This document shows, in pieces, positions 5,087-30,217 of a stretch of 36,757 bases of DNA (positions within the stretch are counted from its first letter, which is position 1; every line of letters begins with the position of its first letter). The notes under the pieces were generated by a model, which was given only the letters and a program-made list of their open reading frames with translations, ran no database searches and had not been told where the DNA came from. The stretch comes from Acidimicrobiia bacterium. GTDB lineage: Bacteria; Actinomycetota; Acidimicrobiia; IMCC26256; PALSA-610. The DNA is taken from the NCBI GenBank assembly GCA_017882905.1, contig JADGOO010000040.1, forward strand, positions 1-36,757, in the 5' to 3' direction. Made by a program: the position numbers and the translations under genes.

Positions 5087-6676
5087 ATGCCGCCCACGGT
5101 CGCCGACCTGTTCGGCGAAGTCGGACTACCTGCACCGGTCAGCGAGCTCGCGGCCCGCTCCTGGGACGTGATCGTGGTCGGCGGTGGCCACAACGGCCTC
5201 ACGGCCGCGGCCTACCTCGCTCGCGCCGGCAAGTCGGTGCTCGTGCTCGAAGCGCGATCGCGGCTCGGCGGCGCGTGCACGCTCGAGCGACCGTTCGACG
5301 ACCGCGACTACGTGGTCAGCCCGTGCGCCTACGTGGTGGGCCTCCTCGACGAGCGGGTGGTCGACGAGCTGCAGCTGCGCAAGCACGGCTACAAGGTGTA
5401 CGTCGCGGATCCGGGGATCTGGTGCCCGTTCGACGACGGCACGTCGTATGTGCAGTTTCTCGACCACGATCGCACCGTCGCCAACCTCGAGCAGAACGGG
5501 TTCGGCGCGGCCGACATCGCCGGCCAGTTCGAGTACGAGGAGTTCTTCGACTCGATGCGGCGTGCGCTGCGCGAAGGTCCGCGTGATGCGTGGACCGGCG
5601 ATGCGCCGTCGCGCGATGAGCTCGACGCCCTGCTTGGTCACGACGAGCAGAAGATCGACGCGCTCTTCCATGCATCGATCGCCGATGTGATCGACCGCTA
5701 CTGCTCCGACGAACGGTTGCGCACCGCGCTCTACGGCCAGGGTGTGATCGGTGCGTGGGCCGGGCCCCGTGACGCTGGGACCGCGTCGATCAAGCTCATG
5801 CACTTCTCGGGGGTGCTCGAGGGTGTGCCGATGGCGTGGGGTTACGTGGAGGGGGGCATGGGGCGCATCTCGTTCGCCATCGCCGACGCGGCGCGCGAGG
5901 CGGGCGCGGTGCTCGTGGCCGGAGTTCCCGTCGGCGAGATTCTCCCCGGCGAGGGCGTGCGCCTCGCGGGCGGCGAGATCGTGCGCGCGCCCGTCGTGGT
6001 GTCGAACGCCGATCCGTCGGTCACCGTCACGCTCCTGGGCGCGGCGGCTCCTGATGCAATGCGGGCCAAGGTCGCGGGCTGGAAGCTCACGAGTCCGGTG
6101 TTGAAGCTGAACTGCGGGCTCGGGCGTCTGCCGACGTGGACCGCTGCTCCCGACGACGACTATCCGTGTCGGGCTCCGGTGTCGATCGCGCTTCCGATCG
6201 ACGAGGCTCAGGCCGCGTTCGAGGCCTGCACGCGCGGCGAGCCGTCGCCCGGTTTCGCCGAGCTCTACTTTCAGAGCGCATACGACAGCACCGTCGCGCC
6301 GCGCGGCAAGCACACGATGAGCGCGTTCGTGCAGTACGCGCCGTACGAGCTGGCCGCCGGCGACTGGGACTCTCGTCGCGATGAGATCGGCCGACGGGTG
6401 ATTGATCTGATCGCCCGCTTCGCGCCCGACATCGACGACTGCGTGGAGGAGATCGACGTGCTCGGCCCGCCCGACATCGAACGGCGCGTCGGCCTCACGG
6501 GCGGACACATCTTCCAAGGTGAGTGCACGCCCGACCAGATGTGGACGGGTCGCTTCGCGCCACGAACCGGCGCACCCGGTGTGTATCTGTGCGGAGCGGC
6601 CACGCATCCCGCTGGGAGCGTGATCGCGCTCAACGGCCGCAATGCGGCGATGGCCGTGCTGGCCGACGATCACTAG
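5087..6676 (+). CDS. FAD-dependent oxidoreductase (phytoene dehydrogenase/CrtI-like family)
   Basis: This is a 529-residue protein with ATG 5087 preceded by AGAGGAAAG. The dinucleotide-binding motif V-I-V-V-G-G-G-H-N-G-L-T-A-A (residues 28-41) is followed by E55 and R-L-G-G-A-C-T (59-65), the FAD-binding Rossmann signature. The C-terminal G-V-Y-L-C-G-A-A-T-H-P-A-G-S motif is the second FAD contact seen in phytoene desaturase and amine oxidase relatives. No carotenoid genes lie nearby, so carotenoid desaturation is unlikely. Co-transcription with an aminotransferase suggests that both act on one substrate. It may be soluble, since no membrane segment is visible. Confidence 0.9.
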   Translation: MPPTVADLFGEVGLPAPVSELAARSWDVIVVGGGHNGLTAAAYLARAGKSVLVLEARSRLGGACTLERPFDDRDYVVSPCAYVVGLLDERVVDELQLRKHGYKVYVADPGIWCPFDDGTSYVQFLDHDRTVANLEQNGFGAADIAGQFEYEEFFDSMRRALREGPRDAWTGDAPSRDELDALLGHDEQKIDALFHASIADVIDRYCSDERLRTALYGQGVIGAWAGPRDAGTASIKLMHFSGVLEGVPMAWGYVEGGMGRISFAIADAAREAGAVLVAGVPVGEILPGEGVRLAGGEIVRAPVVVSNADPSVTVTLLGAAAPDAMRAKVAGWKLTSPVLKLNCGLGRLPTWTAAPDDDYPCRAPVSIALPIDEAQAAFEACTRGEPSPGFAELYFQSAYDSTVAPRGKHTMSAFVQYAPYELAAGDWDSRRDEIGRRVIDLIARFAPDIDDCVEEIDVLGPPDIERRVGLTGGHIFQGECTPDQMWTGRFAPRTGAPGVYLCGAATHPAGSVIALNGRNAAMAVLADDH

Positions 6677-6695
6677 GGCGGCGGCGACTCGAGTC

Positions 6696-7145
6696 TCACG
6701 AACGGCTTGGCAGCCGAACGATCGTCAACCAGTAGTGCTCGATGCCGCGCACCGTCTCGAGGAACTCCTCTGAGTCGAGCGGTTTGGTGATGAAGCTGTT
6801 CGCGTGGCACGCGTAGGCGTCGGCCTTCTCGAGCGGTGAGCGCGACGAGCTCAGCACGATCACCGGGATCGCTTTCAGCTCGTTGCGTGACTTGATGTTG
6901 TCGAGGACCTCGAGACCGTCGATGCGCGGGAGGTTGAGGTCGAGGAGAATGAGCTCCGGGATGGGTCGCTCGCCGCGTGCTGCCGAGCCAAGGATGTCGA
7001 GCGCAGCTGCGCCATCGCGCGCGACGACGAGGTCGACGGCGATGCTGGCATCGTCGAATGCTTCCTCCGTCAGCACGATGTCGGGCTCGCTGTCCTCGAT
7101 CAACAGCACGAGAAGAGGACGAGCGATGAGTGGCGTGGTCTTCAC
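6696..7145 (-). CDS. single-domain response regulator (Rcp1/CheY-like)
   Basis: This is a 149-residue receiver with no output domain. Acidic residues E17-D18, phospho-acceptor D69 (L-I-L-L-D-L-N-L-P), S99/S100 and K121 (F-I-T-K-P-L) are all in place. Length and sequence match the Rcp1-like receivers that partner PAS/phytochrome histidine kinases. Its GTG start overlaps the stop of the upstream kinase gene by four bases (GTGA), so translation is coupled and the kinase is its likely phosphodonor. Output is presumably by protein-protein contact or phosphate relay. It is the last gene of the three-gene operon. Confidence 0.93.
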   Translation of the reverse strand: MKTTPLIARPLLVLLIEDSEPDIVLTEEAFDDASIAVDLVVARDGAAALDILGSAARGERPIPELILLDLNLPRIDGLEVLDNIKSRNELKAIPVIVLSSSRSPLEKADAYACHANSFITKPLDSEEFLETVRGIEHYWLTIVRLPSRS

Positions 7146-8668
7146 ACGAGCTCCTGTTGGCTTTGCACTGCCGGAAGCACGATGATCACGTCGAGGCCGC
7201 CGCCGGCGGACTCGCCGAGGGTGATCCGCCCGGCGTGCGCCTCGACGATCCGGCGCGCGACGGAGAGGCCGATGCCCGTACCCGGATAGTCATTCCCATT
7301 CAGCCGCTCGAAGATGTCGAACGCACGCTCGCGGTACGCAGGGTCGATGCCGATCCCGTTGTCTCGTACGTGGATCTTGTGACACCCATCAGTGCGGCGC
7401 TCGTGCACGATCTCCACTCGCGGTGGAATGCCCGCGCGGCCGAACTTGAGCGCGTTCGCAAGCAGGTTGACGAAGAGTCGGTACAGGAGGTCTTCGTCGC
7501 CGCTGATCCGGGGAAGCGCGTCCGTGGTGATCAACGCCTTCACCGCTTCGCCCTGAGCGGACACTGCTCGGCAGGCCGCACGCACCACTTCGTCGAGGTC
7601 GACCTCGTGGACGCGCAGGTCGTCGCGCCCGACGCGTGAGAGCTCGAGGAGCGCCTCGATGAGGGCCTGCATGCGCGTGGCGCCGTCGACCACGTAGCCG
7701 ATGTAGCGCCGGCCCTGTTCGTCGACGAGGTCGGTGTAGCGATCGGCGAGCTTCTGCACGAATGCCGAGATGTGCCGGAGCGGCTCTTGGAGGTCGTGCG
7801 AGGCCACGTACGCGAACTGCTCGAGCTCGGCGTTCGACCGGGCGAGATCGGCCGTGCGCTCGGCGAGGGCGGCCTCGACCTTCTTGCGCTCGGTGATGTC
7901 GCGCGAGACGGTCGACGCACCCACGATCACACCGTTGTCATCGCGGATCGCCGAGACGCGCAGCGACACGTCGACGAGGGACCCGTCCTTGCGAACCCGC
8001 ACCGTGTCGACCGGCTCCGAGACGTCGACGCCCTCGATCAGCGCGAGCGCGGCGAGTATCTCATCGACCTGGCCGGGTGGCAGCAGGATCGCGATGTTCT
8101 TGCCGATCACTTCCTCCGACGAGTAGCCGTAGAGCCGCGCTGCGCCATGGTTCCAGTGAGTGATCACGCCGTCGAGCGTCTTGGCGATCATGGCATCGTT
8201 GCTCGACGCGACGATGGCGGCTTCGAGCAGTGCCATCTCGGCCGCCCTACGGTCGGTGACGTCGCGGATCTCTGCCGCAACGAGGCCGGCCTGCGCCTCG
8301 ATCGGGCTCAGGGAGATCTCCACGGCGAACTCCGAGCCGTCCTTGCGGCGGCCCATCAGGTCGAGCGCGGCGCCCATGTTTCGAACTCGAGGATGCGCCG
8401 CGAAGTAGTCACGGTGTTGCGCGTGCTGGTCGCGCAGACGGTCGGGCAACAATGCCTCGACGCGCCTTCCGAGCAGCTCTTCGCGTCGATACCCGAACAA
8501 CCGCTCGGTCTGCGCGTTCACGAGATCGATACGACCTTCGGCGTCGACGATGACCATCGCGTCGGGTGCCGATTCGACGAGCGCTTCGAACTTGAGCTCG
8601 GCGCGCGCGGCCGCCGCGTCGGCCGGGTCGGGCTGGCCGACCGTTCGGGTTCGCCCGTCGAGGCTCAT
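7142..8668 (-). CDS. PAS-PAS sensor histidine kinase (soluble)
   Basis: This 508-residue protein starts at ATG 8668, whose A is shared with the preceding gene's stop (TGATG). PAS1 covers about residues 25-140 (F-E-A-L-V-E-S-A-P-D-A-M) and PAS2 about 145-262, each ending in a D-V-T-D-R/D-I-T-E-R linker. A coiled segment leads to the HisKA box with H291 (V-A-S-H-D-L-Q-E-P-L-R). The ATPase domain has N-box N401-N405, D-N-G-I-G-I-D (436-442) and G-T-G-I-G-L (463-468). There are no transmembrane segments, so the signal is cytosolic (redox, light or small molecule; PAS ligand unknown). It probably phosphorylates the receiver encoded next and perhaps the receiver domain of the upstream GGDEF-EAL protein. 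Confidence 0.93.
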   Translation of the reverse strand: MSLDGRTRTVGQPDPADAAAARAELKFEALVESAPDAMVIVDAEGRIDLVNAQTERLFGYRREELLGRRVEALLPDRLRDQHAQHRDYFAAHPRVRNMGAALDLMGRRKDGSEFAVEISLSPIEAQAGLVAAEIRDVTDRRAAEMALLEAAIVASSNDAMIAKTLDGVITHWNHGAARLYGYSSEEVIGKNIAILLPPGQVDEILAALALIEGVDVSEPVDTVRVRKDGSLVDVSLRVSAIRDDNGVIVGASTVSRDITERKKVEAALAERTADLARSNAELEQFAYVASHDLQEPLRHISAFVQKLADRYTDLVDEQGRRYIGYVVDGATRMQALIEALLELSRVGRDDLRVHEVDLDEVVRAACRAVSAQGEAVKALITTDALPRISGDEDLLYRLFVNLLANALKFGRAGIPPRVEIVHERRTDGCHKIHVRDNGIGIDPAYRERAFDIFERLNGNDYPGTGIGLSVARRIVEAHAGRITLGESAGGGLDVIIVLPAVQSQQELV

Positions 8669-11226
8669 CAGTGGGGTGCGGCCGCTGCGAGCAGGTTCGA
8701 CATCGCCGCGCTCGGCTGCGGTTTGGCGAAGTAGTAGCCCTGCGCCATGTCGCATCCGAGGGCTCGCAGCCGAGCGAGCTGCTCCTCGGTCTCGACGCCT
8801 TCGGCGATCGTCGTCAGCCCGAGCGCCTGACCTAGGCCGATCACGGCCTTGACGATCGCGTCGTCATCCGGATTGACCGGGAGACCCGACACGAACGACT
8901 TGTCGATCTTCACGAAGTCGACGGGGAAGCGGCGCAGGTACGTGAGTGACGAGTATCCGGTGCCGAAGTCGTCGACGCCGAGGTCGACGCCCAGGCTCTT
9001 GAGATCGGTGAGGCCGCGCAACGTCGATGAGGCGGAGTCCAACAGGATCGATTCCGTGAGCTCGAGCGTCAGGTGCTGCGCCGGGATGTCGCGCTCTCGC
9101 AACAGGCCGGCGATGGTCTCCGCCAGGGTCGGAAGGGCGAGCTGCCGGGCGGAGAGGTTCACGTGCACTTTGAACGGTGTCCCGTTGCCATGGTTGCGCC
9201 AGATCGAGGCCTGGTCGAGCGCCTTGCGGAGCACCACCTCGCCGAGCGGCACGATGAGCCCGGTGTCTTCTGCCGCGCCGACGAAGTCGGCCGGCATGAG
9301 CAGCCCCTGCTCCTCATCGTCGATCCGTACGAGCGCCTCGACACCGATGGTGGCGCCCGTGGTCATGTCGATCACCGGCTGGTATACAACGACGACGTTG
9401 TCGCCATCGAGTGCGCGTCGGATCGTGGTCTCGGTGCCGAGGCGCTCCATCGCCCGGGCACGGAGCGCGTCATCGAAGATCTCGTAGCGATCCTTGCCGC
9501 ACTCCTTGGCTCGGTACATCGCCATGTCGGCTTCGCGCAGCAGCGGCTCCGGTTCGCGGTGCCGATCCGTCGCAAGCGCGATCCCGATGCTCACCTGCAC
9601 GACCACGTCGGTTCCGCCGAGGCGCACCGGGGTCCTCATCGAACGACGGATCCGCTCCGCGACGGCCGACACGTCGTCGCGGCCGGCGAGGTTCTCCACC
9701 AGGATCACGAACTCGTCGCCACCGAGGCGCGCGACCGTGTCGGAGGGCCGCACGACGTCGATCAGTCGGCGTCCGATCTCTGCGAGCAGCTCGTCGCCTC
9801 GCGCGTGGCCGAGCGTGTCGTTGATCACCTTGAAGCGATCGACGTCGATGTACAGCACCCCGACCGAATCGATCGTGCGGTCGAGGCGGGCGAGTGCGTG
9901 CTCGAGCCGATCTTGGAGCAGCATCCGGTTCGGGAGACCGGTGAGGGGATCGTGCAGGGTCTGGTGCACGAGCCGTGCTTCGGCGACCTTGCGGCTCGTG
10001 ATGTCCTCGGCCTGCACGATGCTGTGCGTGTGCCGCCCGATCGCGTCGTCGACCGTGGCGCCGGAGACGAGTGCCCACACCTCGCGCTCGTCGATGCCGA
10101 TGAGGCGGCACTCGAGGCGAAACGCCTGCCGCCTGTCGCCGAGATGATCGAACGCATCGCGGAACTGCTCCACATCGTCGATGTGCACCAGATCGGAGAC
10201 GCTCATGGCGAGGAGCTGTGGACCTTGAAAGCCCAGCATCTCGATGAGTGCCGGGTTCACTTCCATGAAATGGCCGTCGAGCTCGATCAGAGCCATGCCC
10301 GTCGGCGCCGAGTCAAAGGCGTTCTGGAACCGGGTCTTCGCCTCGAGCAGCGCCGCGGCCTGCTGCTTGCGTTGGGTGACGTCGGTGACCATCGCGAGGG
10401 AGCCGATGAGCTCGCCGCGGCCGTCGAAGATCTCGGTCGTCGCCATGATCGCCCAGAGACTCGTCCCGTCGCGTCGGCGCAACACGAAGTCGTGGCGACC
10501 GTCGATCGCGCTGCGGGCGTCGAGCTGGGAGTTCGCCGCCGCGATCCGCCGACCCTCGTCGTCCATGAACGCGCCGAGCGACGCGCCGATCATCTCGTCG
10601 GCCTCGCACCCGAGGATCTCGGCCATGCGCGGATTGACGAAGGTGGTCAGACCGTCGGTGTCGAATGCCCAGATTCCCTCCTGGGCGAGCTCCACGATCT
10701 GGCGGTAGCGCTCGGTGCTGTGCCGCAGCTCGGCCTCGGCGAGCTCACGTGTGACGACCTCGACGCTCAACGCCTCCGATGCGTCGCGGAGCGCGACCCG
10801 TTGGCGTTGACGTTCGATCGCGTACGTGGCGGACCGCTCGAGAACCTTGGCGTTGAGCTCGTTCTTCACGATGTAGTCCTGGACACCGAGCTGGATCGCG
10901 GCGGCGCCGAGCGAGTTGTGCATCAGGCCGGTGAGCACGACGATCGCCACGTCGGGTGCCGCGTCGCGTACCGCTCGAACCGTCGCGAGGCCGCGAGAGT
11001 CGGGGAGCGACAGGTCGAGCACCACGCAGTCGACCTCCGCGCGCGACAGATACTCGACGGCGAACGCGAGTCGCTCGACGCGCGTCACGCGGAAGCTGTC
11101 GGCCATCACCGGGTCGTCGAAGAGCTCCATCACGAGCTCGGCGTCGGCGGCGCTGTCCTCGACCACGAGCACGTGCCACGGCTCGCGGGCGCTGTCGGTG
11201 TGCGTGAGATCGATGACGTGCGACAT
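8668..11226 (-). CDS. receiver-PAS-PAS-GGDEF-EAL bifunctional c-di-GMP protein
   Basis: Start ATG 11226 gives 852 residues. The order is receiver (about 17-135, D71 acceptor, K121), PAS (about 172-286), PAS (about 297-412), GGDEF (about 420-585) and EAL (about 595-845). The cyclase motif G-G-D-E-F is intact (502-506), and an inhibitory-site R-P-S-D lies five residues before it (493-496), which predicts product feedback. The phosphodiesterase part keeps E-A-L (630-632), D-D-F-G-T-G-Y-S-S-L (752-761) and K774, so both activities may be functional. Phosphorylation of D71 would switch synthesis against breakdown. It is first in the operon with the kinase and the small receiver. Confidence 0.95.
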   Translation of the reverse strand: MSHVIDLTHTDSAREPWHVLVVEDSAADAELVMELFDDPVMADSFRVTRVERLAFAVEYLSRAEVDCVVLDLSLPDSRGLATVRAVRDAAPDVAIVVLTGLMHNSLGAAAIQLGVQDYIVKNELNAKVLERSATYAIERQRQRVALRDASEALSVEVVTRELAEAELRHSTERYRQIVELAQEGIWAFDTDGLTTFVNPRMAEILGCEADEMIGASLGAFMDDEGRRIAAANSQLDARSAIDGRHDFVLRRRDGTSLWAIMATTEIFDGRGELIGSLAMVTDVTQRKQQAAALLEAKTRFQNAFDSAPTGMALIELDGHFMEVNPALIEMLGFQGPQLLAMSVSDLVHIDDVEQFRDAFDHLGDRRQAFRLECRLIGIDEREVWALVSGATVDDAIGRHTHSIVQAEDITSRKVAEARLVHQTLHDPLTGLPNRMLLQDRLEHALARLDRTIDSVGVLYIDVDRFKVINDTLGHARGDELLAEIGRRLIDVVRPSDTVARLGGDEFVILVENLAGRDDVSAVAERIRRSMRTPVRLGGTDVVVQVSIGIALATDRHREPEPLLREADMAMYRAKECGKDRYEIFDDALRARAMERLGTETTIRRALDGDNVVVVYQPVIDMTTGATIGVEALVRIDDEEQGLLMPADFVGAAEDTGLIVPLGEVVLRKALDQASIWRNHGNGTPFKVHVNLSARQLALPTLAETIAGLLRERDIPAQHLTLELTESILLDSASSTLRGLTDLKSLGVDLGVDDFGTGYSSLTYLRRFPVDFVKIDKSFVSGLPVNPDDDAIVKAVIGLGQALGLTTIAEGVETEEQLARLRALGCDMAQGYYFAKPQPSAAMSNLLAAAAPH

Positions 11227-11479
11227 GCCGCTCACGATCCCGCGTTCGACCTGAGATCGGCAGCGCAATCGTTGCGCAGACCTTCGAGTACCACGGGCGA
11301 CTCCAGTCGGGCGAGCAACCAGTGCGCCACCAAAGGTCTGGAGCAACGCCCCCAGGAGATGCCATCTCGGCAGCTCCGGCACGGTGTGGGTGTCGTGATC
11401 CGTGTCGAACAGAACCGTACACCCGCGCGGCGCGCGCTATTACGGCCACGCTCCGCGAAAGTTGTGCAGTCCCGGCGAG

Positions 11480-11504
11480 ACGTCGCGTGGTCTGTTCGCG
11501 ACGT
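11480..11504 (-). terminator. hairpin terminator candidate after the alpha/beta hydrolase
   Basis: Perfect 8-bp arms ACGTCGCG and CGCGACGT enclose a 9-nt loop, about 60 nt beyond the minus-strand stop at 11563. No U-tract follows, as at the other hairpins of this window. Confidence 0.45.
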
Positions 11505-11526
11505 GGTCGAGTAGTCACACTGCACC

Positions 11527-11548
11527 CGTGCGCGTGCGCGTGTGTGCG
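11527..11548. repeat. alternating purine-pyrimidine (CG/TG) tract
   Basis: Twenty-two consecutive bases alternate pyrimidine and purine (CG, TG and GC steps only), just beyond the hydrolase stop. Such tracts can adopt Z-DNA under negative supercoiling. No function can be shown. Confidence 0.4.
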
Positions 11549-11562
11549 ACCGACGCCGCGTC

Positions 11563-12405
11563 TCAGTCGGCGGTGACGAGCTGCTTTGCGAATCGGGCGA
11601 TGTGCTCGGCGACGAGACCGGGTTGGTCGAGCGGGAGCAACGTGTACGCGTCGTCGATCTGCTCGTAGCGCGCGTTCGGGATGATCTCGGCGAGCCGCCT
11701 GCCGTGGTCGGGCGGCATCACCTTGTCGTGTGCGGCCCACAGCACGAGCGCGGGTCGCTCGAAGCGAGCGAGCTCGTCGGCCGCGTCGATGAGCCCGTGG
11801 TAATCGCTCGTGCGCACGTACTTCGCGACGTCGCGGCGAACACCGCGGTTGTGGCGGATGCCCTCGAGCCAGCTCGCGATCACGGGCTTCGGGATCGGCC
11901 GTTTCGCCATCCATCCGAACGTCATCGGCATCCGGCGCATGAAGGGCACGCGCAGCGTCTGGGCCACGGGGAAGATCCCGCCCGGCATGCGTCCGGCGAT
12001 GGTGGCGAAGCGCCCCGGGAGGCCCGGCGGGATGTTGTCGAACGCTTCCTGCGACATGAGCACGATCCCGGCGATGCGTTCCGGATGTCGCACCGCGGTG
12101 ATCTGCGGGCCTCCCCAGTCGACGCTGACGAGCACCACGTCGGTGAGATCGAGCCGCTCGAGGAGCTCGGCGAGCAGCGCGGCGAGACCGTGCAGCGACT
12201 GGTCGGCGTCGGCGTGCATGGCGTGCCGATGTCCACCGAGTGGCAGGACGGGTACGACACAGCGAAATGTTGGGGCAAGCGGCGACACCACGCGCTGCCA
12301 GAGCGTCGCGTCCATCAGCAGGCCACCCACGAGCACCACGACGGCACCGTCGCCACCCGTGTCGTCGTACTCGATGATCCCGCTTGACAGCTCCACCGAC
12401 GGCAT
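11563..12405 (-). CDS. alpha/beta hydrolase, haloalkane dehalogenase/epoxide hydrolase-like, atypical triad
   Basis: This 280-residue protein starts at ATG 12405, with GGAGG 8 nt upstream. The strand V-V-V-L-V-G-G (22-28) is followed by the elbow V-S-V-D-W-G-G-P, placing D96 where haloalkane dehalogenases and epoxide hydrolases carry their Asp nucleophile. D227 (A-A-H-D-K) is the acid. At the usual catalytic His position the sequence reads D-D-A-Y-T-L-L-P (Y254), so the general base is replaced. The oxyanion H-G-x-P motif is also replaced by V-G-G-L. It may be a non-hydrolytic binding protein or use another base. It is divergent from tetR across a palindromic operator, so it is probably a target of that repressor. 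Confidence 0.85.
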   Translation of the reverse strand: MPSVELSSGIIEYDDTGGDGAVVVLVGGLLMDATLWQRVVSPLAPTFRCVVPVLPLGGHRHAMHADADQSLHGLAALLAELLERLDLTDVVLVSVDWGGPQITAVRHPERIAGIVLMSQEAFDNIPPGLPGRFATIAGRMPGGIFPVAQTLRVPFMRRMPMTFGWMAKRPIPKPVIASWLEGIRHNRGVRRDVAKYVRTSDYHGLIDAADELARFERPALVLWAAHDKVMPPDHGRRLAEIIPNARYEQIDDAYTLLPLDQPGLVAEHIARFAKQLVTAD

Positions 12406-12440
12406 TCGCTCGACCTCCGCGCTGACGACTAGAGCCATCA

Positions 12441-12469
12441 CTCTAGAAGCACTAGAGCGATCGCTCAAG
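12441..12469. promoter_or_regulatory. TetR operator region between hydrolase and tetR
   Basis: Two overlapping inverted repeats lie in the 94-bp divergent gap: CTCTAG/CTAGAG arms (12441-12457, 5-bp spacer), and a palindrome centred on the perfect 12-mer GAGCGATCGCTC (12455-12466) that extends to 18 bp with one mismatch (12452-12469). Autoregulation by the adjacent TetR is the likely role. Confidence 0.65.
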
Positions 12470-12486
12470 TCGCGCGCCACGGACAG

Positions 12487-12492
12487 TACGCT
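12487..12492 (+). promoter_or_regulatory. -10 element of tetR, probable leaderless transcript
   Basis: TACGCT (TANNNT) ends 7 nt before ATG 12500, the usual -10 to +1 distance, and no ribosome site is present. Transcription would begin at or next to the start codon. Confidence 0.5.
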
Positions 12493-12499
12493 CGACCGC

Positions 12500-13102
12500 A
12501 TGGCCACGACGACGAAGGATCGGTTGATCGAGGCGACCGCAGAGCTGTTCCGGCATCAGGGCTACTCGGCGACGGGCGTGAAGGAGATCGTCGACGCGGC
12601 CCGCGCGCCGTTCGGTTCGATGTACCACTTCTTCCCCGGCGGCAAGGAGGAGCTGGGCGCGGCCACGATCCGCTGGTCGGGTGCGATGTACGGCGAGCTG
12701 ATCGAGATCTTCTATGCCGACACGAGCGACCCGGTCGCGGCCACCCGGCAGTTCTTCGAGGCGGCCGCCGACACGGTGCGCGACACCGACTACACCGACG
12801 CCTGCCCGATCGCCACGGTCGCGCTCGAGGTGGCAAGCACGAGCGACCCGCTGCGCCGGGCCACGGCTGACGTCTTCGAAAGCTGGTTGGTCCAGCTCGA
12901 TGCCCACTTCGCGCGCAACGGCCTCACCAAGACCCAGGCCCGCAGCCTGTCGGTCTCGCTGTTCTGTCTGCTCGAGGGCGCGTTCTTGTTGGCGCGCGCC
13001 ACGCGCGAGCACCGACACATCCGAGCTGCGGGGCGTACTGCTGCGGCCGCGGTGCGTGACGCTCTCGAGCACCGCGCGAGCACCGTTGCTCGCCGCCGAT
13101 GA
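12500..13102 (+). CDS. TetR-family repressor
   Basis: This is a 200-residue protein. Residues 5-50 form the DNA-binding domain (R-L-I-E-A-T-A-E-L-F-R-H-Q-G-Y then T-G-V-K-E-I-V-D-A-A-R-A-P-F-G-S-M-Y-H-F-F). The S-M-Y-H-F-F-P-G-G-K-E-E-L motif is typical of the LmrA/YxaF-like branch, where G-K-E-E-L/Q follows the recognition helix. The C-terminal domain carries the T-D-Y-T-D-A-C-P-I-A-T-V-A-L-E-V-A region common in that branch. It probably controls itself and the divergent hydrolase through the palindromes at 12441-12469. The stop lies immediately before a truncated RibD-like remnant, so a deletion may have ended close to this gene. Confidence 0.92.
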   Translation: MATTTKDRLIEATAELFRHQGYSATGVKEIVDAARAPFGSMYHFFPGGKEELGAATIRWSGAMYGELIEIFYADTSDPVAATRQFFEAAADTVRDTDYTDACPIATVALEVASTSDPLRRATADVFESWLVQLDAHFARNGLTKTQARSLSVSLFCLLEGAFLLARATREHRHIRAAGRTAAAAVRDALEHRASTVARRR

Positions 13103-23215: not shown

Positions 23216-23363
23216 CAAGCCTGGCCCCGTCCGGCGCCGTCGTAGCCCGCGCTCACGCCTCCAATCGCCGCTCCCCATTGCCGCGCCGGACCGCCCGCGG
23301 TACGTTCGCCCGTGCGGCGGCGCTCAGCAACGCGTCGGATCGCACGTGACGGGGGAGCAACGA

Positions 23364-25907
23364 GTGACTACACGAACGAATCGTTCAGTTCGCCGCGGGG
23401 CCGTTCTCGGCGTGATCGCCGTCTTGATCGGCGGCGCGCTCGTGGCGAACCCGTCGGGCGCGACGCGTGCCGTGGGCTCGGTGCATCACGGCGACCGCGC
23501 GTACTACGTGTTGCCGCCCGGCAACTACGGCGGTCTCCCGACCACGGAGCAATCGCTCGATCAGCTGCCGCTCTACGACGCGCTCACGCCGCTGCGCGGG
23601 CACGTCACCGACGCCGACATCGCCAAGGACTACCTCCCGGACAACTTCGCGCCGGTCGGGGCCACCCACGTGGAACAGACGGGGCGCACAGGAACGACGA
23701 TCGTGTACGACGCCTACGGCATCCCGCACATCACCGGCAAGACGCGCGCCGACCTTGCGTTCGGCACCGGTTGGGTCACGGCCCGTGATCGCGGTCTGTT
23801 GTTGCAGCTCGGACGAGGTCCGGCGCGCGCGGCCGTCGCCGACGTCCCGGGCATCAACGCGTTCGGTCTCGTGACCAGCGCGCAGTCGTTCGTGCCCAGC
23901 GCGCAGACCGAACAGCTGCTCGACGATCAGGTGCACCGCATCATCGCCACCTACGGCGACAAGGGTCGTCAGATCATCGCCGACGCGCAGGCCGAAGCCG
24001 ACGGCGTGAACGCGTACTACGCCGCGAACAACATCAATCAACCGCCGATGACCGTGCACGACGTGATCGCGGTCGCCGCGTTCATCGGGTCGATCTTTGG
24101 TTCCGGCGGCGGCGCCGAAGCCTCGAACGCGGAGTTCCTCTCCGAGCTGCAGAACCACATGGGCGCCGACGCGGGCCGCAAGGCCTGGGAAGACGTGATG
24201 CTCCTCGACGACGCGGAGGCGCCCACCACCATCACTCGCCGCTTCGACTACGGGTGGCGCACCGGTGGTCCGGTCACGGGATCGGCGGCCATCGACGAAG
24301 GTTCCGTGGTGTCGCTCGACCCGACCCAGCCGTTGCCATTCGCAGGTGCGGCGGCGAAGGTCGCGGGCGCGGCGCGGCTCGTCGCCGCGCAAGCGCCCAC
24401 CGAACCGTGGACGTATCCCGCCGCGGGTCCGGTGCCGTCGAAGCAGGCATCGAACTTCCTCATCGTGAACCCAGCCCGCTCGGCAACGGGCAACACGCTC
24501 GCCGTCATGGGCCCGCAGCTCGGTTACTACTACCCGGAGATCGTCGAACAGGAGCAGCTGACCGGCCCTGGCATCGAAGCGCAGGGCGTCGCCGTTCCCG
24601 GCATGTCGATGTACCTGCTCATCGGCCGCACACCCGACTACGCGTGGAGCCTCACGTCGGCCGACCACGACGTGCGCGACGTGTTCGCCGAGGAGCTCTG
24701 CAACCCCGACGGCAGCCCCGCCACGCAACACTCCGATCACTACATGTTCCGGGGCGTGTGCCGTCCGTTCACGATGTTCGATGCCGGCCTGCTCAACGGC
24801 ACGCCGGTGCGGTATCCGATGTCGGTGCACGGGCCGGTGATCGGTTGGGCAACGTCGCACGGTCGCGCCATCGCGCTCACACGGCAACGCTCCACGTTCG
24901 GGCTTGACGGTCTCAACCTCGCTGCGCTCAAGGACATGACCGAGAACAAGGCGACCACGCCCGACAAGTTCTTCACCGCGGCGAACGAGTTCGGCTTCAC
25001 GTTCAACTGGGGGTACGCATCGCGGCACGCCACGGCATACTTCTCCTCGGGCCTCCTGCCGCGCCGGGCCCCGGGTCTCGATCGCCGTCTCCCGACACTG
25101 GGCACCGGTGCGTACGAGTGGCGCGGTTTCCTCTCCCGCGACGAGCACCCGCACGACATCACCGGACCAGGTGGCATCCTCCTCAACTGGAACAACCGAT
25201 CCGCGCCGGGCTTCATGCACGGCGACGACACCCCGTTCGGCTCCGTCCATCGCGTCGAGATGTTCGATCAGTTCGCTTCGAAGGTCACGCTCGCCGGTGA
25301 CGTGAGCGTGATGAACCGTGCGGCTACCGAAGACACGCGGTCGATCGTGTGGCCGGTGGTGAGCGAGGTGCTGCACGGCAGTGCCGCGCCGGATTCCCTC
25401 GACGCGAAGGTCGTGAGCTTGCTCGATCGGTGGGTGCACGACGATGCACCTCGACTCGATGCCGACAACAACGGTCTCTATGACAGCGCCGGGCCGACGA
25501 TCATGGACGCGCTGTGGCCGGCTGTGGCGAACGCCGTGATGAGCCCCGTGTTCGGCGCGCTCACCACGGATCTCAACGCGATCCGTGGTCTGAACGGGCT
25601 GTCGGGCGAGTCGTATGTGGACAAGGATCTGCGCACGCTGCTCGGCCAGGCCGTGAAGAGCCCATTCCACCTGCGCTACTGCGGCGACGGCTCGCTCGCG
25701 GCGTGCCGCGCGTCGCTGTGGGCCGTGGTCGACCAGGTCGCTGCGAGCCTCGCGGCGACGAACGGCGCGGATCCGGCCACGTGGTTGAGTGCGGCGTCGC
25801 GCACCGGCTTCGTGCCCGGGCTGATCCCCGACACGATGCGCACCACCAACCGCTCTACGTTCCAGCAGGTGCTGGAGCTCGACGGTCTCGAACCGGAGCC
25901 GCGCTAG
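23364..25907 (+). CDS. penicillin acylase-family Ntn hydrolase (secreted/membrane-anchored)
   Basis: This 847-residue protein starts at GTG 23364 (GGGGGAG 7 nt upstream; a GTG at 23346 is the alternative). Residues 12-28 are a hydrophobic export or anchor segment after R-R. The N-terminal chain includes V-Y-D-A-Y-G-I-P-H-I-T-G (115-125). Autocatalytic cleavage would expose S363 (Q-A-S-N-F-L-I-V), the Ntn nucleophile. G-I-E-A-Q-G-V-A-V-P-G and F-N-W-G-Y-A-S are family motifs of the beta chain. Family members deacylate beta-lactams, acyl-homoserine lactones or lipopeptides; the real substrate is unknown. It converges on the exporter gene 18 bp away. Confidence 0.93.
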   Translation: MTTRTNRSVRRGAVLGVIAVLIGGALVANPSGATRAVGSVHHGDRAYYVLPPGNYGGLPTTEQSLDQLPLYDALTPLRGHVTDADIAKDYLPDNFAPVGATHVEQTGRTGTTIVYDAYGIPHITGKTRADLAFGTGWVTARDRGLLLQLGRGPARAAVADVPGINAFGLVTSAQSFVPSAQTEQLLDDQVHRIIATYGDKGRQIIADAQAEADGVNAYYAANNINQPPMTVHDVIAVAAFIGSIFGSGGGAEASNAEFLSELQNHMGADAGRKAWEDVMLLDDAEAPTTITRRFDYGWRTGGPVTGSAAIDEGSVVSLDPTQPLPFAGAAAKVAGAARLVAAQAPTEPWTYPAAGPVPSKQASNFLIVNPARSATGNTLAVMGPQLGYYYPEIVEQEQLTGPGIEAQGVAVPGMSMYLLIGRTPDYAWSLTSADHDVRDVFAEELCNPDGSPATQHSDHYMFRGVCRPFTMFDAGLLNGTPVRYPMSVHGPVIGWATSHGRAIALTRQRSTFGLDGLNLAALKDMTENKATTPDKFFTAANEFGFTFNWGYASRHATAYFSSGLLPRRAPGLDRRLPTLGTGAYEWRGFLSRDEHPHDITGPGGILLNWNNRSAPGFMHGDDTPFGSVHRVEMFDQFASKVTLAGDVSVMNRAATEDTRSIVWPVVSEVLHGSAAPDSLDAKVVSLLDRWVHDDAPRLDADNNGLYDSAGPTIMDALWPAVANAVMSPVFGALTTDLNAIRGLNGLSGESYVDKDLRTLLGQAVKSPFHLRYCGDGSLAACRASLWAVVDQVAASLAATNGADPATWLSAASRTGFVPGLIPDTMRTTNRSTFQQVLELDGLEPEPR

Positions 25908-25925: not shown

Positions 25926-27458
25926 TCACGCCACGTCAATCGCTTCGAAGACTGTCTCGTCGGGCGCGGCGCCGCTCGCCACGCTGACGCGCGGGATGAG
26001 GAGCGAGAGCAGCGCGCCGAACGCGACGATGCCCGCGGCGAAGAACATCGCCGGCCGCGCGCCGTGAGCCACCGTGGCGGCCGATCCTGTGCTGCCCGAC
26101 GCGTCGATGAACGACGCGAACGTCGCGATGCCGAGCGCGAGGCCGACCTGGCGGACGGTGGTGTTGGCGCCGCTCGCGACTCCCGTCCTGGCCGGATCGA
26201 TGTCGGAGAGGATCACGTTCGTGAGCTGCGAGCTGGCCAAGCCCACGCCGAGCCCGAACACCGTCATGCCCGGCAGCAGATCGAAGAACGAGACGTGGGC
26301 GGAGATGGCCACCGCCACCAGCAACAGCCCGATCGATTCGAACACGAGACCGCTGCGCACGATGCTCGTGGTGCTCACGTGCTGCGTGAGGCGGCCGGCG
26401 ACCGGCGCGGCGAACGCGATCAGGATCCCCTGCGGCAACAGCCATTCGCCGGCGTGCAGGGCCGAGAGATGCTCTCCGTTCTGCAAGAGCACGGGCAGGA
26501 TGAACAAGAGCCCGAACTGGCCCATCGCGAGCACCATCGTCGTCAGGAGGCCGTAGCGGAAGCCGAGGTGGTGCAGCTGGCCGAACTCGAACAAGGGCTG
26601 GCGGTCGTTGCGCTCCATCGAGCGTTCGATGAGCACGAACACCGTGAACACGACGATGGCCACCACGAACGCGAACGGGATGATCGACACGGCTCGCGTG
26701 GCCGGCCAGGCCGTTGCGCTCCCAAGTGCAACGTCCTTGATCGGCCGCCACCAGCCGTAGGTCGTGCCCTCGCTCAACCCGAAGATCAAGCTGAACGAGC
26801 CGATGGCGATGAGCGCGGCACCCCGCGCGTCGAGGCGCGGACGGCGACCGCTGCGCTCGTCGCGGTGCATGAACGCGAACGCGCCCGCCACCAGTACCGG
26901 GGCAAGGATCACGTTGATCCGAAAGCCCCACCGCCACGAGTAGTCGCTCGTGAGCCAACCGCCGAGCACCGGGCCGAACGCAACCGACGCGCCGGCGACT
27001 GCACCCCATGCGGCAAACGCCTTCGGCCGCTCGGCGCCAGTGAACGTGGTTGACAGGATCGACAGCGTTGCCGGGATCATCATCGACGCGCCGATGCCTT
27101 CGATCAACGCCTCACCGACGAAGAGCGACGGCACCGAGGTGGAGATCGACGCGAGCAGCGATCCCACTCCGAAGATGCCGGCGCCGAACACGAACATGTG
27201 GCGGTGCCCGAACATGTCGCCGAGGCGACCGCCGATGATGAGCAGCGTCGCGAACGTGAGCGAGTATCCGGTGATCACCCACTGCAGGCTCGCGAGCTGC
27301 GTGTGGAACTCCCGCAGGATCGTCGGTACCGCCAGGTTGAGGATCGAGTTGTCGAGCACGGGGATCGCGACCGACACGATCGCCACCGATGCCGCGAACC
27401 AGCGCCTCGGATCGAGCGATTCGTCGACTGAGTCCGAGGCCGAGATCAGGATCACCAC
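25926..27458 (-). CDS. MFS multidrug exporter, DHA2-type (14 TM)
   Basis: This is a 510-residue transporter with about 14 hydrophobic helices. V-L-D-N-S-I-L-N-L-A-V-P-T-I-L in TM1 is the DHA motif D1 (LDxTxxNVALP). G-G-R-L-G-D-M-F-G-H-R-H is motif A. G-A-V-A-G-A-S-V-A-F-G-P-V-L-G-G is antiporter motif C. It probably exports a hydrophobic drug or metabolite using the proton gradient. Start GTG 27458 (a second GTG follows directly) has no strong ribosome site. It is divergent from the cyclase-STAND regulator, which may control it, and convergent with the acylase. Confidence 0.92.
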   Translation of the reverse strand: MVILISASDSVDESLDPRRWFAASVAIVSVAIPVLDNSILNLAVPTILREFHTQLASLQWVITGYSLTFATLLIIGGRLGDMFGHRHMFVFGAGIFGVGSLLASISTSVPSLFVGEALIEGIGASMMIPATLSILSTTFTGAERPKAFAAWGAVAGASVAFGPVLGGWLTSDYSWRWGFRINVILAPVLVAGAFAFMHRDERSGRRPRLDARGAALIAIGSFSLIFGLSEGTTYGWWRPIKDVALGSATAWPATRAVSIIPFAFVVAIVVFTVFVLIERSMERNDRQPLFEFGQLHHLGFRYGLLTTMVLAMGQFGLLFILPVLLQNGEHLSALHAGEWLLPQGILIAFAAPVAGRLTQHVSTTSIVRSGLVFESIGLLLVAVAISAHVSFFDLLPGMTVFGLGVGLASSQLTNVILSDIDPARTGVASGANTTVRQVGLALGIATFASFIDASGSTGSAATVAHGARPAMFFAAGIVAFGALLSLLIPRVSVASGAAPDETVFEAIDVA

Positions 27459-27583
27459 CTGTGAGGAGGGCGATCAGGGCGGGCCGCCTGACGCTGTCAT
27501 CCTCGTCGTTCGCGGTTCTATCAAACCTCCCGGTCGCTGAGCTCGAATGCGTAGCCTTGGCCGCGATGGGGAGCGCCGCTTCG

Positions 27584-30217
27584 ATGGTGCCGTCGGGCAC
27601 GGTGACGTTCTTGTTCTCCGACGTCGTGGGCTCGACGCGACTCTGGGCAAAGCAACCCGCGGCGATGTCGGTGGCGCTTCGCGTGCACGATCAAGTGATT
27701 CGAGAGGCCGTTGCCGCCCACGACGGCTACGTGTTCGCCACAGCCGGTGATGGGTACTCGGTCGCGTTCGATCGCGCGACCTCCGCGATCGATTGCGCGA
27801 CCGCGATCCAAGCCGTCCTTGCCACGCACGAATGGGGAAGCGGTCCGGCGCTCACCGTGCGCATCGGGCTGCATCTCGGTCAGGCCGAGGAACGCGAAGG
27901 AAACTTCTTCGGCCCGACGGTCAACCTGACCGCTCGTGTCGCGGCGGCCGCCCACGGCTGCCAGTGCGTGATGACCGAAGCGGTCCGCGACGCGGCCGCC
28001 GTTGTCGCGAGCGATCTCGGTATGCATTTCCTGCGCGATATCGACGCCCCGGTGCACCTGTACCAGATTGGCGATGACACATTCCCGCCGCTGTGGAGTC
28101 TCGGGAACGGAATCGTCTCGTTGCCGGCGCAGCGCACGCCGTTGATCGGCCGCGCGGATGATGTTATCGCCGTGCGCCGGTTGCTCGCCGACGCGCGGCT
28201 GGTGACCCTCACCGGTGTCGGTGGATGCGGCAAGACCCGGCTCGCCGTCGAAGTTGCCCATGACGAGGTGTCTGCGAACCCGGGGGGTGTGTGGTTCGTG
28301 GATCTTGCCGCGATCGCCGACGATGCGGCCGTCGGCGGTGCCTTTGCCACGGCGCTCGACCTGGCCGTTGACCGTTCCGTCGATGTCGCCCGGCAGATCG
28401 CCGCGTATCTCGCGCCGCGCAAGGCCGTGCTCGTGGTCGACAACTGCGAGCACGTGATCGACTGCGTTGCCCAGCTGCTCGACGAGCTGCTCGAAGGCTG
28501 CCCTCGGCTGCAGGTGCTGGCGACGAGTCGCGAATCGCTCGAGATCGCCGGCGAGCACACATGGAAGGTTCCTTCGCTCGCGACCGGCGCAGGTTCGGCC
28601 GCGGTCGAACTGTTCATGAGCCGCGCTACGGCCGCGGGAGCGAACCTCGTGCGTGACGAGGAGAGCATGGCGATCGTCGGCGACATCGTCGAGCAACTCG
28701 ACGGGATACCTCTTGCCATCGAGCTTGCTGCGGCGCGGGCGCGCAGCGTCGATCTCGAGGAGCTCCGCGATCGACTCGACGATCGGTTCCGGTTCCTTTC
28801 TGGTGGGAAACGCCGATCGCGCCAGCGCCAAGCGACGCTCGAAGCCGCGATGCAGTGGTCGTACGACCTGTTGGACGATGGCGAGACATCGATGCTGCGT
28901 TGCCTGTCGGTGTTCCAAGGTGGCTTCGCTCTCGCCGACGTGGCCGCAGTCGCGGGTGTCGATGAGAACGTTGCCATCGACCTCGTTGACGCATTGGCCG
29001 CGAAGTCGCTGATCGACGTATTGCGCGACAGCCGGGGGCAGCTGCGTTACCAGCTGCTTGAGACGATCCGCCTGTTCGCCCTCTCCCGCCTCATCGAAAC
29101 CGACGAGATCGCAGAAGTGCGCGACCGTCATCTCGATCACTTCGTGAACGATTCGATCGGAGCGTCGTGGAACGACCGGCTGGACATCCGTTCGATGCTC
29201 CGCATAGATCGAGAGTTCGACAATCTCCGTTCCGCTGCTACGTGGGCGCTCGAACGTGGCCGGCCCGACGCGACGGTGAGGCTCGCAGCCGCAGCTGCCG
29301 ACGCGTTCGTCTCTCGCGGCGAGAGGCAGCTCGCGCTCGAGTGGCTTCAGCTACCAGCCGACCTGCATGGCCGCCAGCTCGTGTTCGCGCGTGCGGTGCT
29401 CGCCTACTTCCTACAATCGAACGGCGATATCGAGAGCGCGTGCCGCGCGGCGCGCGAAGCCATCGCCGAAGGCGAACGGTCTTCGTGCGATGACGTCGTG
29501 GCCGCGATGCTTGTGCTCAATTCCTCCGAGAGTGTTCGCGGCAACCACGATCTCGCGCAGGAGCTTCTGAGCGCGGCACGCATTGCGGCGCGATCATTCG
29601 GGGCCAACGCGCGCGCCATGACCGAGCTTGCGTGGCTCGAGTCATGCATCGAGCGCGGAACAACCGAAGAAGCGCTCGCCGTCGCGATCGACATTTGCGA
29701 CCATGCGCCGACGCTGGGCTGGCGCTACTGGGTCGAGGCAACGCGGGCGTCATTGCTGCTGATGCTCGACCGCATCGCCGAGGCCGCCGAAGTCGTCGGG
29801 TCCTTCAGTGAAGTGCCGCCGACGTCGCAGTGGGGGCACATGATGGACGTGACGAGACACGCGGTGATGGTCCACACCGACGGACCCGACGTCGCGGCGC
29901 GATCGCTGGCGGCCGTGGCCCGGGAGTCGGTCGCGCGCCGACCGGAGCTGTGCGTCGACTTTCTTCAGTGCTTTGCGTACGCCGCGTACTTCGGCGGCGA
30001 CCACGAGCGTGCGCGCGAGATGTCGTTCAACACGTTGCCGGTCGGCGCGGGTTGGATACAGGCATGGCTCGTCGGTCAGCTCTACGGCACCACGAGCGAC
30101 GACAGCGTGCAGATCCGCCGGGAGTTCGACGCCGAACACCCCTGGAACGAGCTCCGGGCATTCACCGAAGAACACGGCGCTCGCCTCTTCGTCGAGGAGC
30201 TCGCCCGCTGGTCATGA
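27584..30217 (+). CDS. class III nucleotidyl cyclase fused to STAND (AAA/NB-ARC-like) ATPase
   Basis: The 877-residue reading starts at ATG 27584 (GGGGAG 10 nt upstream); ATG 27566 adds six residues. The cyclase domain (about 1-165) keeps metal D13 (F-S-D-V-V-G-S-T), D56 (T-A-G-D-G), N114 and R118 (V-N-L-T-A-R), but the substrate-specifying Lys is absent (A-T-A-G-D-G), so activity may be altered. The ATPase has Walker A G-V-G-G-C-G-K-T (211-218), Walker B V-L-V-V-D-N (282-287) and an A-T-S-R sensor. A helical TPR-like C-terminus follows. The LuxR-type HTH common to such regulators is missing at the C-terminal end. Confidence 0.9.
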   Translation: MVPSGTVTFLFSDVVGSTRLWAKQPAAMSVALRVHDQVIREAVAAHDGYVFATAGDGYSVAFDRATSAIDCATAIQAVLATHEWGSGPALTVRIGLHLGQAEEREGNFFGPTVNLTARVAAAAHGCQCVMTEAVRDAAAVVASDLGMHFLRDIDAPVHLYQIGDDTFPPLWSLGNGIVSLPAQRTPLIGRADDVIAVRRLLADARLVTLTGVGGCGKTRLAVEVAHDEVSANPGGVWFVDLAAIADDAAVGGAFATALDLAVDRSVDVARQIAAYLAPRKAVLVVDNCEHVIDCVAQLLDELLEGCPRLQVLATSRESLEIAGEHTWKVPSLATGAGSAAVELFMSRATAAGANLVRDEESMAIVGDIVEQLDGIPLAIELAAARARSVDLEELRDRLDDRFRFLSGGKRRSRQRQATLEAAMQWSYDLLDDGETSMLRCLSVFQGGFALADVAAVAGVDENVAIDLVDALAAKSLIDVLRDSRGQLRYQLLETIRLFALSRLIETDEIAEVRDRHLDHFVNDSIGASWNDRLDIRSMLRIDREFDNLRSAATWALERGRPDATVRLAAAAADAFVSRGERQLALEWLQLPADLHGRQLVFARAVLAYFLQSNGDIESACRAAREAIAEGERSSCDDVVAAMLVLNSSESVRGNHDLAQELLSAARIAARSFGANARAMTELAWLESCIERGTTEEALAVAIDICDHAPTLGWRYWVEATRASLLLMLDRIAEAAEVVGSFSEVPPTSQWGHMMDVTRHAVMVHTDGPDVAARSLAAVARESVARRPELCVDFLQCFAYAAYFGGDHERAREMSFNTLPVGAGWIQAWLVGQLYGTTSDDSVQIRREFDAEHPWNELRAFTEEHGARLFVEELARWS

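Follow-up and report, generated by a model that had tools for sequence, protein, structure and literature searches.

What does a soluble histidine kinase sense when it is encoded between an enzyme of cyclic di-GMP (c-di-GMP) turnover and a small receiver protein, and what is that receiver for when the enzyme already carries one of its own? The question is raised by a three-gene operon on the minus strand of contig JADGOO010000040.1 (36,757 nucleotides, referred to below as the window) from the Acidimicrobiia genome GCA_017882905.1. We consider it reasonably probable that the operon encodes a heme-based, redox- or gas-sensing kinase (P0002) that controls the c-di-GMP enzyme (P0001), together with an auxiliary receiver (P0003). 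This reading builds on the genes, their domains and motifs, family placement and recurrence of the gene set, from which we infer heme binding, phosphotransfer, the direction of the effect and the role of P0003. The heme-type PAS domain of P0002 with His82 and Met98 is the new point of the present analysis and the most specific clue in the operon; it was overlooked in the initial annotation of the window, made from the sequence alone. The coordinates and overlaps given there were re-derived identically, as follows.

8668..11226, minus strand: P0001, REC-PAS-PAS-GGDEF-EAL c-di-GMP enzyme (effector), 852 amino acids, from ATG at 11226 to TGA at 8668 (Pfam)
7142..8668, minus strand: P0002, soluble PAS-PAS-HisKA-HATPase_c histidine kinase, 508 amino acids (Pfam)
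6696..7145, minus strand: P0003, Rcp1-type single-domain receiver, 149 amino acids, GTG start (Pfam)
8666..8670, minus strand: TGATG, stop of P0001 and start of P0002, one-base overlap (sequence)
7142..7145, minus strand: GTGA, start of P0003 and stop of P0002, four-base overlap (sequence)

An alternative, in-frame GTG start of P0001 lies 9 bases upstream of the ATG at 11226, the start chosen in the initial annotation. E-values of the Pfam domains named in the operon ranged from 1.3e-9 (HisKA) to 1.5e-72 (EAL), far beyond chance. No DNA-binding domain was named by Pfam in P0001, P0002 or P0003, in agreement with the earlier view that the operon has no DNA-binding output.

The kinase is built of the following domains.

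8243..8578, minus strand: PAS1 of P0002, residues 31-142, heme-PAS type, with His82 (8423-8425) and Met98 (8375-8377) at the FG214 heme-ligand positions (sequence, predicted fold, family alignment)
7889..8197, minus strand: PAS2 of P0002, residues 158-260, without heme-type His (Pfam, alignment)
7631..7825, minus strand: HisKA of P0002, residues 282-346, H291 in SHDLQEP (Pfam, motif)
7169..7501, minus strand: HATPase_c of P0002, residues 390-500 (Pfam)

The kinase core had 8f71 as its nearest PDB match, followed by bacteriophytochrome kinases. For PAS1, the best PDB sequence match was 10jx, the heme PAS of FG214 (E 1e-18), with FixL and DosP next. Its fold was predicted with a mean predicted local distance difference test (pLDDT) score of 86.8, and in fold searches with VIA-align and Foldseek the heme PAS domains of FixL, FG214 and DosP ranked among the best hits, closely followed by PAS domains without heme and by LOV domains. 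According to the accessible text of the FG214 study (PMC13060918, preprint), the heme is held by His156 on the proximal side and by His175, or Met172 in reduced crystals, on the distal side. Sequence alignment and residue spacing map His156, Met172 and His175 to His82, Met98 and Ala101 of P0002, respectively. PAS1 is thus alike to FixL, DosP and FG214 in PAS sequence, predicted fold and proximal His, the latter at the FixL/FG214 position, and Met98 would correspond to the known distal ligand Met172 of the reduced FG214 crystals, as far as the preprint text goes. A heme-type His is absent from the remaining three PAS domains, namely the two of P0001 and PAS2 of P0002.

Judging from these residues, PAS1 probably binds heme. 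An unlikely alternative is that PAS1 has no heme, its conserved His and Met having a structural role, and that the domain binds another ligand or serves as a dimer spacer. The presence of LOV and NifL PAS domains among the close fold matches would speak for it; against it stand the nearest solved relative, which is heme-bound through His156 and Met172 at the aligned positions, and the conservation of both residues. Among 28 PAS1-type domains (the operon kinase included; 18 of 41 genomes searched), the His was kept in 27 and the Met in 26: the two were lost together in one domain, and just one other, L320, keeps the His with Leu at the Met position. It should be added that in the domain with the double loss, L313 (G027:C896), both putative heme ligands are replaced, by Tyr and Thr, which makes it a natural control for heme binding.

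The presumed target of the kinase, P0001, consists of five domains.

10846..11172, minus strand: receiver domain of P0001, residues 19-127 (E23/D24, D71, T99, K121) (Pfam)
10378..10713, minus strand: PAS domain 1 of P0001, residues 172-283, without heme-type His (Pfam, alignment)
9997..10305, minus strand: PAS domain 2 of P0001, residues 308-410, without heme-type His (Pfam, alignment)
9490..9957, minus strand: GGDEF domain of P0001, residues 424-579, RPSD 493-496, GGDEF 502-506 (Pfam, motifs)
8719..9426, minus strand: EAL domain of P0001, residues 601-836, motifs present (Pfam, motifs)

The receiver residues E23/D24, D71, T99 and K121 were assigned the roles that we take them to have, with D71 as phospho-acceptor, and the catalytic residues of GGDEF and EAL were likewise assigned on roles that we assume. 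The EAL domain carries EAL at 630, NLS at 690, ELTE at 722, DDFG at 752, K773 in VKID, AEGVE at 808 and QGY at 829, and the GGDEF-EAL part aligns along its length with MucR and MorA, where the motifs are conserved. P0001 therefore combines, in a single polypeptide, GGDEF, EAL and a receiver that has the phospho-acceptor Asp, and the catalytic motifs of both output domains are present. The earlier statement that the catalytic residues of kinase and enzyme are intact agrees with our finding of all motifs expected from the sequence, including H291, RPSD, GGDEF and EAL. The same annotation had seen the interest of the operon in a dual-active enzyme that carries a receiver itself; the architecture was described correctly, and REC-GGDEF-EAL regulators with a histidine kinase are already known from the accessible literature, namely RavR-RavS, CfcR-CfcA and Lpl0329-Lpl0330. 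What the operon has in common with RavR, CfcR and Lpl0329 is a GGDEF-EAL enzyme under receiver control, with a histidine kinase as its partner. In contrast to them, two PAS domains sit between the receiver and GGDEF in P0001, and an Rcp1-type receiver is encoded alongside, of which the accessible accounts of the three systems give no evident counterpart. Since the host genome, a draft of 4.36 Mb in 259 contigs, contained 35 GGDEF and 34 receiver matches, a GGDEF-EAL enzyme per se is unremarkable in it.

P0003 consists of a single Response_reg domain (Pfam) with E17/D18, D69, S99 and K121, which we presume to have the usual receiver roles, D69 being the phospho-acceptor. Its nearest relatives in PDB were 5te9, 6xvu, 8avv (a bacteriophytochrome-receiver fusion), Rcp1 (1i3c) and RcpA (1k68), and it possesses the C-terminal W...LP segment common to its nine aligned relatives. 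As a single receiver domain with Rcp1-type nearest solved relatives, it belongs to the Rcp1/bacteriophytochrome type; its kinase is no phytochrome, having only PAS-type, HisKA and HATPase_c families in Pfam. The operon is thus similar to Cph1-Rcp1 and the bacteriophytochrome regulators in the type of small receiver and in the kinase core, and differs from them in that P0002 has no chromophore domains by Pfam and in that there is an additional effector gene. Among the common Rcp1-type receivers there are many for which no output is known. Their distribution was patchy: they were detected in 26 of 395 genomes of the class (E 1e-18) and in 74 of 396 genomes drawn from the phylum (E 1e-25).

The two receivers of the operon resemble each other at the very surface expected to meet the kinase. 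The kinase-facing segment was taken as the 17 residues that begin with the acidic pair and end with helix alpha-1; in it, 9 of 17 residues are identical between P0001 and P0003, vs 24 of 120 (20%) across the remaining domain, and no other receiver match of the genome (n=32) shares more than 5 of 17 with either operon receiver. At five positions that we take to determine receiver specificity, the operon receivers share three, and the 32 other receivers at most two with either. The same tendency was seen in 57 trios of kinase, small receiver and REC-effector, where the within-trio alpha-1 identity averaged 7.63, vs 6.94 (standard deviation 0.17) after shuffling partners within layout; 0 of 2000 shuffles reached 7.63, with L076 and L131, which were misaligned, scored as zero. 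These figures fit a docking of both receivers on the same kinase, as their sequences would suggest. The earlier proposal that one kinase feeds two receivers gains support from the shared helix as far as the kinase is concerned; the sink or competitor role attached to P0003 does not.

To place the operon among its relatives, loci with Rcp1-type receivers were surveyed (n=88: this operon, 27 from scans of the host genome and the class, and 60 of 84 further places from the phylum scan). A kinase lay directly upstream of the receiver, i.e. on the same strand with gene centres within 1 kb, in 68 of the 88 loci. In 57 of these 68 pairs a REC gene was linked on the same strand, and in 14 of the 57 it encoded GGDEF. 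Upstream of the pair, the REC gene encoded REC-PP2C in 24 cases, REC-GGDEF-EAL in two (this operon and L129) and REC-GGDEF in one (L130); downstream, there were nine REC-GGDEF-EAL, two REC-GGDEF, 12 REC-kinase and one REC-PP2C. Six further REC genes had an output that was unrecognised or cut by the contig end, and 11 pairs had no linked REC gene. In a second survey, of named loci (the best 80 of at least 584), a receiver followed the kinase within 1 kb in 62 of the 80; 45 of these 62 had the layout REC-PP2C, kinase, receiver, and five, from four Betaproteobacteria and one Leptospirillum, had kinase, receiver, REC-GGDEF-EAL. Furthermore, in the genus with the receiver helix of the Mycobacterium loci (L145, L199), the receiver was present in 141 of 198 genomes, and 17 of 20 hand-picked loci of this Mycobacterium-like genus (second copies included) had REC-PP2C, kinase, receiver, the other three having no kinase or REC-effector within the 8 kb taken. 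Because of the layout counts in both surveys, we regard the set as widespread, with an effector that varies in type and in place around the kinase-receiver pair.

Several individual loci deserve mention. In L362, L363 and L372, from three probable-Mycobacterium genomes with two copies each, the Rcp1-type receivers have no kinase in the 8 kb taken. In six loci of Streptomyces and Actinacidiphila (L185, L196, L200, L201, L209, L212) the layout varies: the kinase is preceded by an Rcp1-type match on the other strand and followed by REC-PP2C. Betaproteobacterial cassettes L194, L225 and L239 combine kinase and Rcp1-type receiver with two successive REC-GGDEF-EAL genes. Finally, a genome of the same family as the host has kinase, receiver and REC-GGDEF-EAL at L035 (G007:C25), with a kinase that falls in a different clade from P0002.

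The ancestry of the kinase was approached with trees of differing stringency. In the careful tree, built on 62 kinase cores after L066, L080, L144 and L181 had been left out as long or odd, P0002 joined L130 (100/91) inside a clade of ten (98/91), and the PP2C kinases formed a separate clade of 25 (100/99). Eight of the ten members have linked REC genes with GGDEF (that of L061 on the opposite strand), L125 is cut by the contig end and L165 has a REC-kinase. An earlier quick tree of 27 kinases had likewise put P0002 outside the PP2C clade, its own place being unsupported. The trees of receivers were less informative: that of Rcp1-type receivers was weak for P0003, with long branches meeting, and in that of REC domains, where the bootstrap had not settled, the P0001 receiver paired with L127 only.

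A number of observations weigh against the proposed reading. A second quick tree, in which long branches were included and two of 68 kinase rows were left out as too short, places P0002 and L130 among the PP2C kinases, and an approximately unbiased (AU) test leaves the PP2C placement of P0002 unrejected (p 0.387). Since the careful tree and this quick tree differ and the AU test does not reject, no lineage is claimed for P0002. Shuffling within layout leaves co-inheritance in, and this could give part of the alpha-1 signal. The exact gene order with a GGDEF output was found in only three of the 68 pairs (this operon, L129 and L130). The motifs of P0001 are no proof of activity in both GGDEF and EAL. 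In PAS1, neither the distal Arg of FixL, which we take to be Arg220, nor His175 of FG214 is conserved, and PAS1 differs from these sensors also in belonging to a kinase whose gene neighbours that of a c-di-GMP enzyme. Moreover, the clade kinases looked at with Pfam do not share a heme-type PAS: L130 has CHASE, and L060 and L129 have other PAS domains. Taken with the CHASE3 and HAMP of L145, the sole PP2C-type kinase run through Pfam, this makes the heme input look particular to the operon kinase. A module swap from a REC-PP2C cassette may also be the origin of the operon, as the second quick tree had suggested; the careful tree did not uphold it, and the AU value given above does not reject it.

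As to the purpose of the small receiver, the precedents are instructive. RsfSR was the sole direct case of a published three-gene module found in our literature search, with subscription papers mostly outside its reach. As far as the accessible text of that study goes, RsfS phosphorylates RsfR at Asp74, lowering its phosphatase activity, and the third protein of the Mycobacterium smegmatis set rsfR-rsfS-MSMEG_6128, MSMEG_6128 itself, was not phosphorylated by RsfS, its deletion leaving the reporter unchanged (PMC10950880). The order of REC-effector, histidine kinase and receiver gene is the same as here, and in both the effector carries a receiver, phosphorylated by the kinase in RsfSR. In the accessible description the systems differ in the effector (a PP2C phosphatase vs GGDEF-EAL), in the sensor (membrane CHASE3 vs soluble PAS) and in the helix-turn-helix motif of MSMEG_6128, which Pfam does not find in P0003. 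Because of this described motif, MSMEG_6128 may not be of Rcp1 type (PMC10950880), and its orthology with Rcp1-type receivers is unproven. A link between MSMEG_6128 and the Rcp1-type receivers was sought through the neighbouring rsfB-rsbW2 genes: in 21 loci, of which 18 were mycobacterial in kind, and in 20 more, the receiver had no RsbW-like neighbour by simple motif scans, which can miss such a gene. VieSAB of Vibrio cholerae likewise unites, in the text available, a kinase, a receiver-bearing c-di-GMP effector and an auxiliary receiver protein in one operon. VieA, presumably an EAL protein with DNA binding, differs in make-up from P0001. The available part of the VieB study reports that VieB binds VieS and inhibits its autophosphorylation and phosphotransfer non-competitively, under tuning by its own Asp (PMC4352251).

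The initial annotation had proposed that P0002 phosphorylates both receivers and that P0003, as a sink or competitor for phosphate, keeps down the phosphorylation of the c-di-GMP enzyme. The kinase-facing helix common to both receivers, D69 and K121 of P0003 and the position of the kinase immediately before the receiver in 68 of 88 loci are compatible with this, and a precedent exists in LovR, a sink in the network of MrrA, itself a single-domain receiver acting as phosphate hub, according to the accessible text (PMC5964349). By analogy, however, the failure of RsfS to phosphorylate the third receiver, for all its unproven orthology, and the non-competitive action of VieB would argue against a sink, and we hold it to be rather unlikely. 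Tentatively, we favour P0003 as an allosteric regulator that would bind the kinase and alter its autophosphorylation in a VieB-like manner, not being the main phosphate acceptor. The same two precedents point this way, as does the persistence of the Rcp1-type receiver beside the kinase in loci of differing effector type; VieB, with tetratricopeptide repeat among the keywords of its paper (PMC4352251), is not a bare receiver like P0003, so for Rcp1-type receivers the precedent holds by analogy only. On these analogies, allosteric tuning would rank above a sink. A pathway of P0002 and P0003 of their own, with another target as in Cph1-Rcp1 and the c-di-GMP enzyme merely co-transcribed and served by another kinase or none, appears improbable: Rcp1-type receivers do follow such kinases in several phyla beside several different third genes, and 11 of 68 pairs, some near contig ends, have no linked REC gene, but the other 57 do, the alpha-1 helix is common to both operon receivers, and the M. 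smegmatis kinase phosphorylates the effector and not the third receiver, in the text accessible (PMC10950880).

In the mechanism that we propose for a heme-sensing kinase with an auxiliary receiver, PAS1 of P0002 would bind heme b, with His82 and Met98 as ligands, and sense either a gas (O2, NO or CO) or the redox state. The state of the heme would alter autophosphorylation at H291, from which phosphate would pass to D71 of the P0001 receiver, and phosphorylation of D71 might shift the balance between c-di-GMP synthesis by GGDEF, under product inhibition through RPSD, and breakdown by EAL. The two PAS domains of P0001 may supply a second input. P0003, made together with the kinase, would dock on the same kinase surface and most likely tune kinase activity or the flow of phosphate, a separate output being less likely.

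The operon is flanked upstream by an alpha/beta hydrolase gene on the same strand (11563-12507) and downstream by a convergent gene for an FAD-dependent oxidoreductase ending at 6676; promoter and terminator scans over 6400-11700 found none. Elsewhere in the window, a plus-strand gene at 27389-30214, a second type of nucleotide-signalling gene, encodes a protein in which NB-ARC follows a guanylate/adenylate cyclase catalytic domain, and another at 23346-25904 (plus strand) a penicillin-amidase family protein.

The operon is, then, an ordinary kind of c-di-GMP two-component system with a recurrent helper receiver, and heme sensing is its specific testable prediction. More speculatively, and with low confidence, kinase, Rcp1-type receiver and REC-effector may form one widespread module with exchangeable output (PP2C, GGDEF-EAL or a second kinase), in which the kinase-Rcp1 pair is constant and the Rcp1-type receiver an allosteric partner and not an output, the version described here coupling a His/Met heme redox sensor to c-di-GMP. 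As Pfam names no membrane sensor in them, the operon proteins should be easy to purify. In the operon the predicted input (heme at His82 and Met98) can be checked and the output measured as c-di-GMP, and the frequent company of a kinase and a swappable REC-effector makes it testable whether the Rcp1-type receiver steers its kinase.

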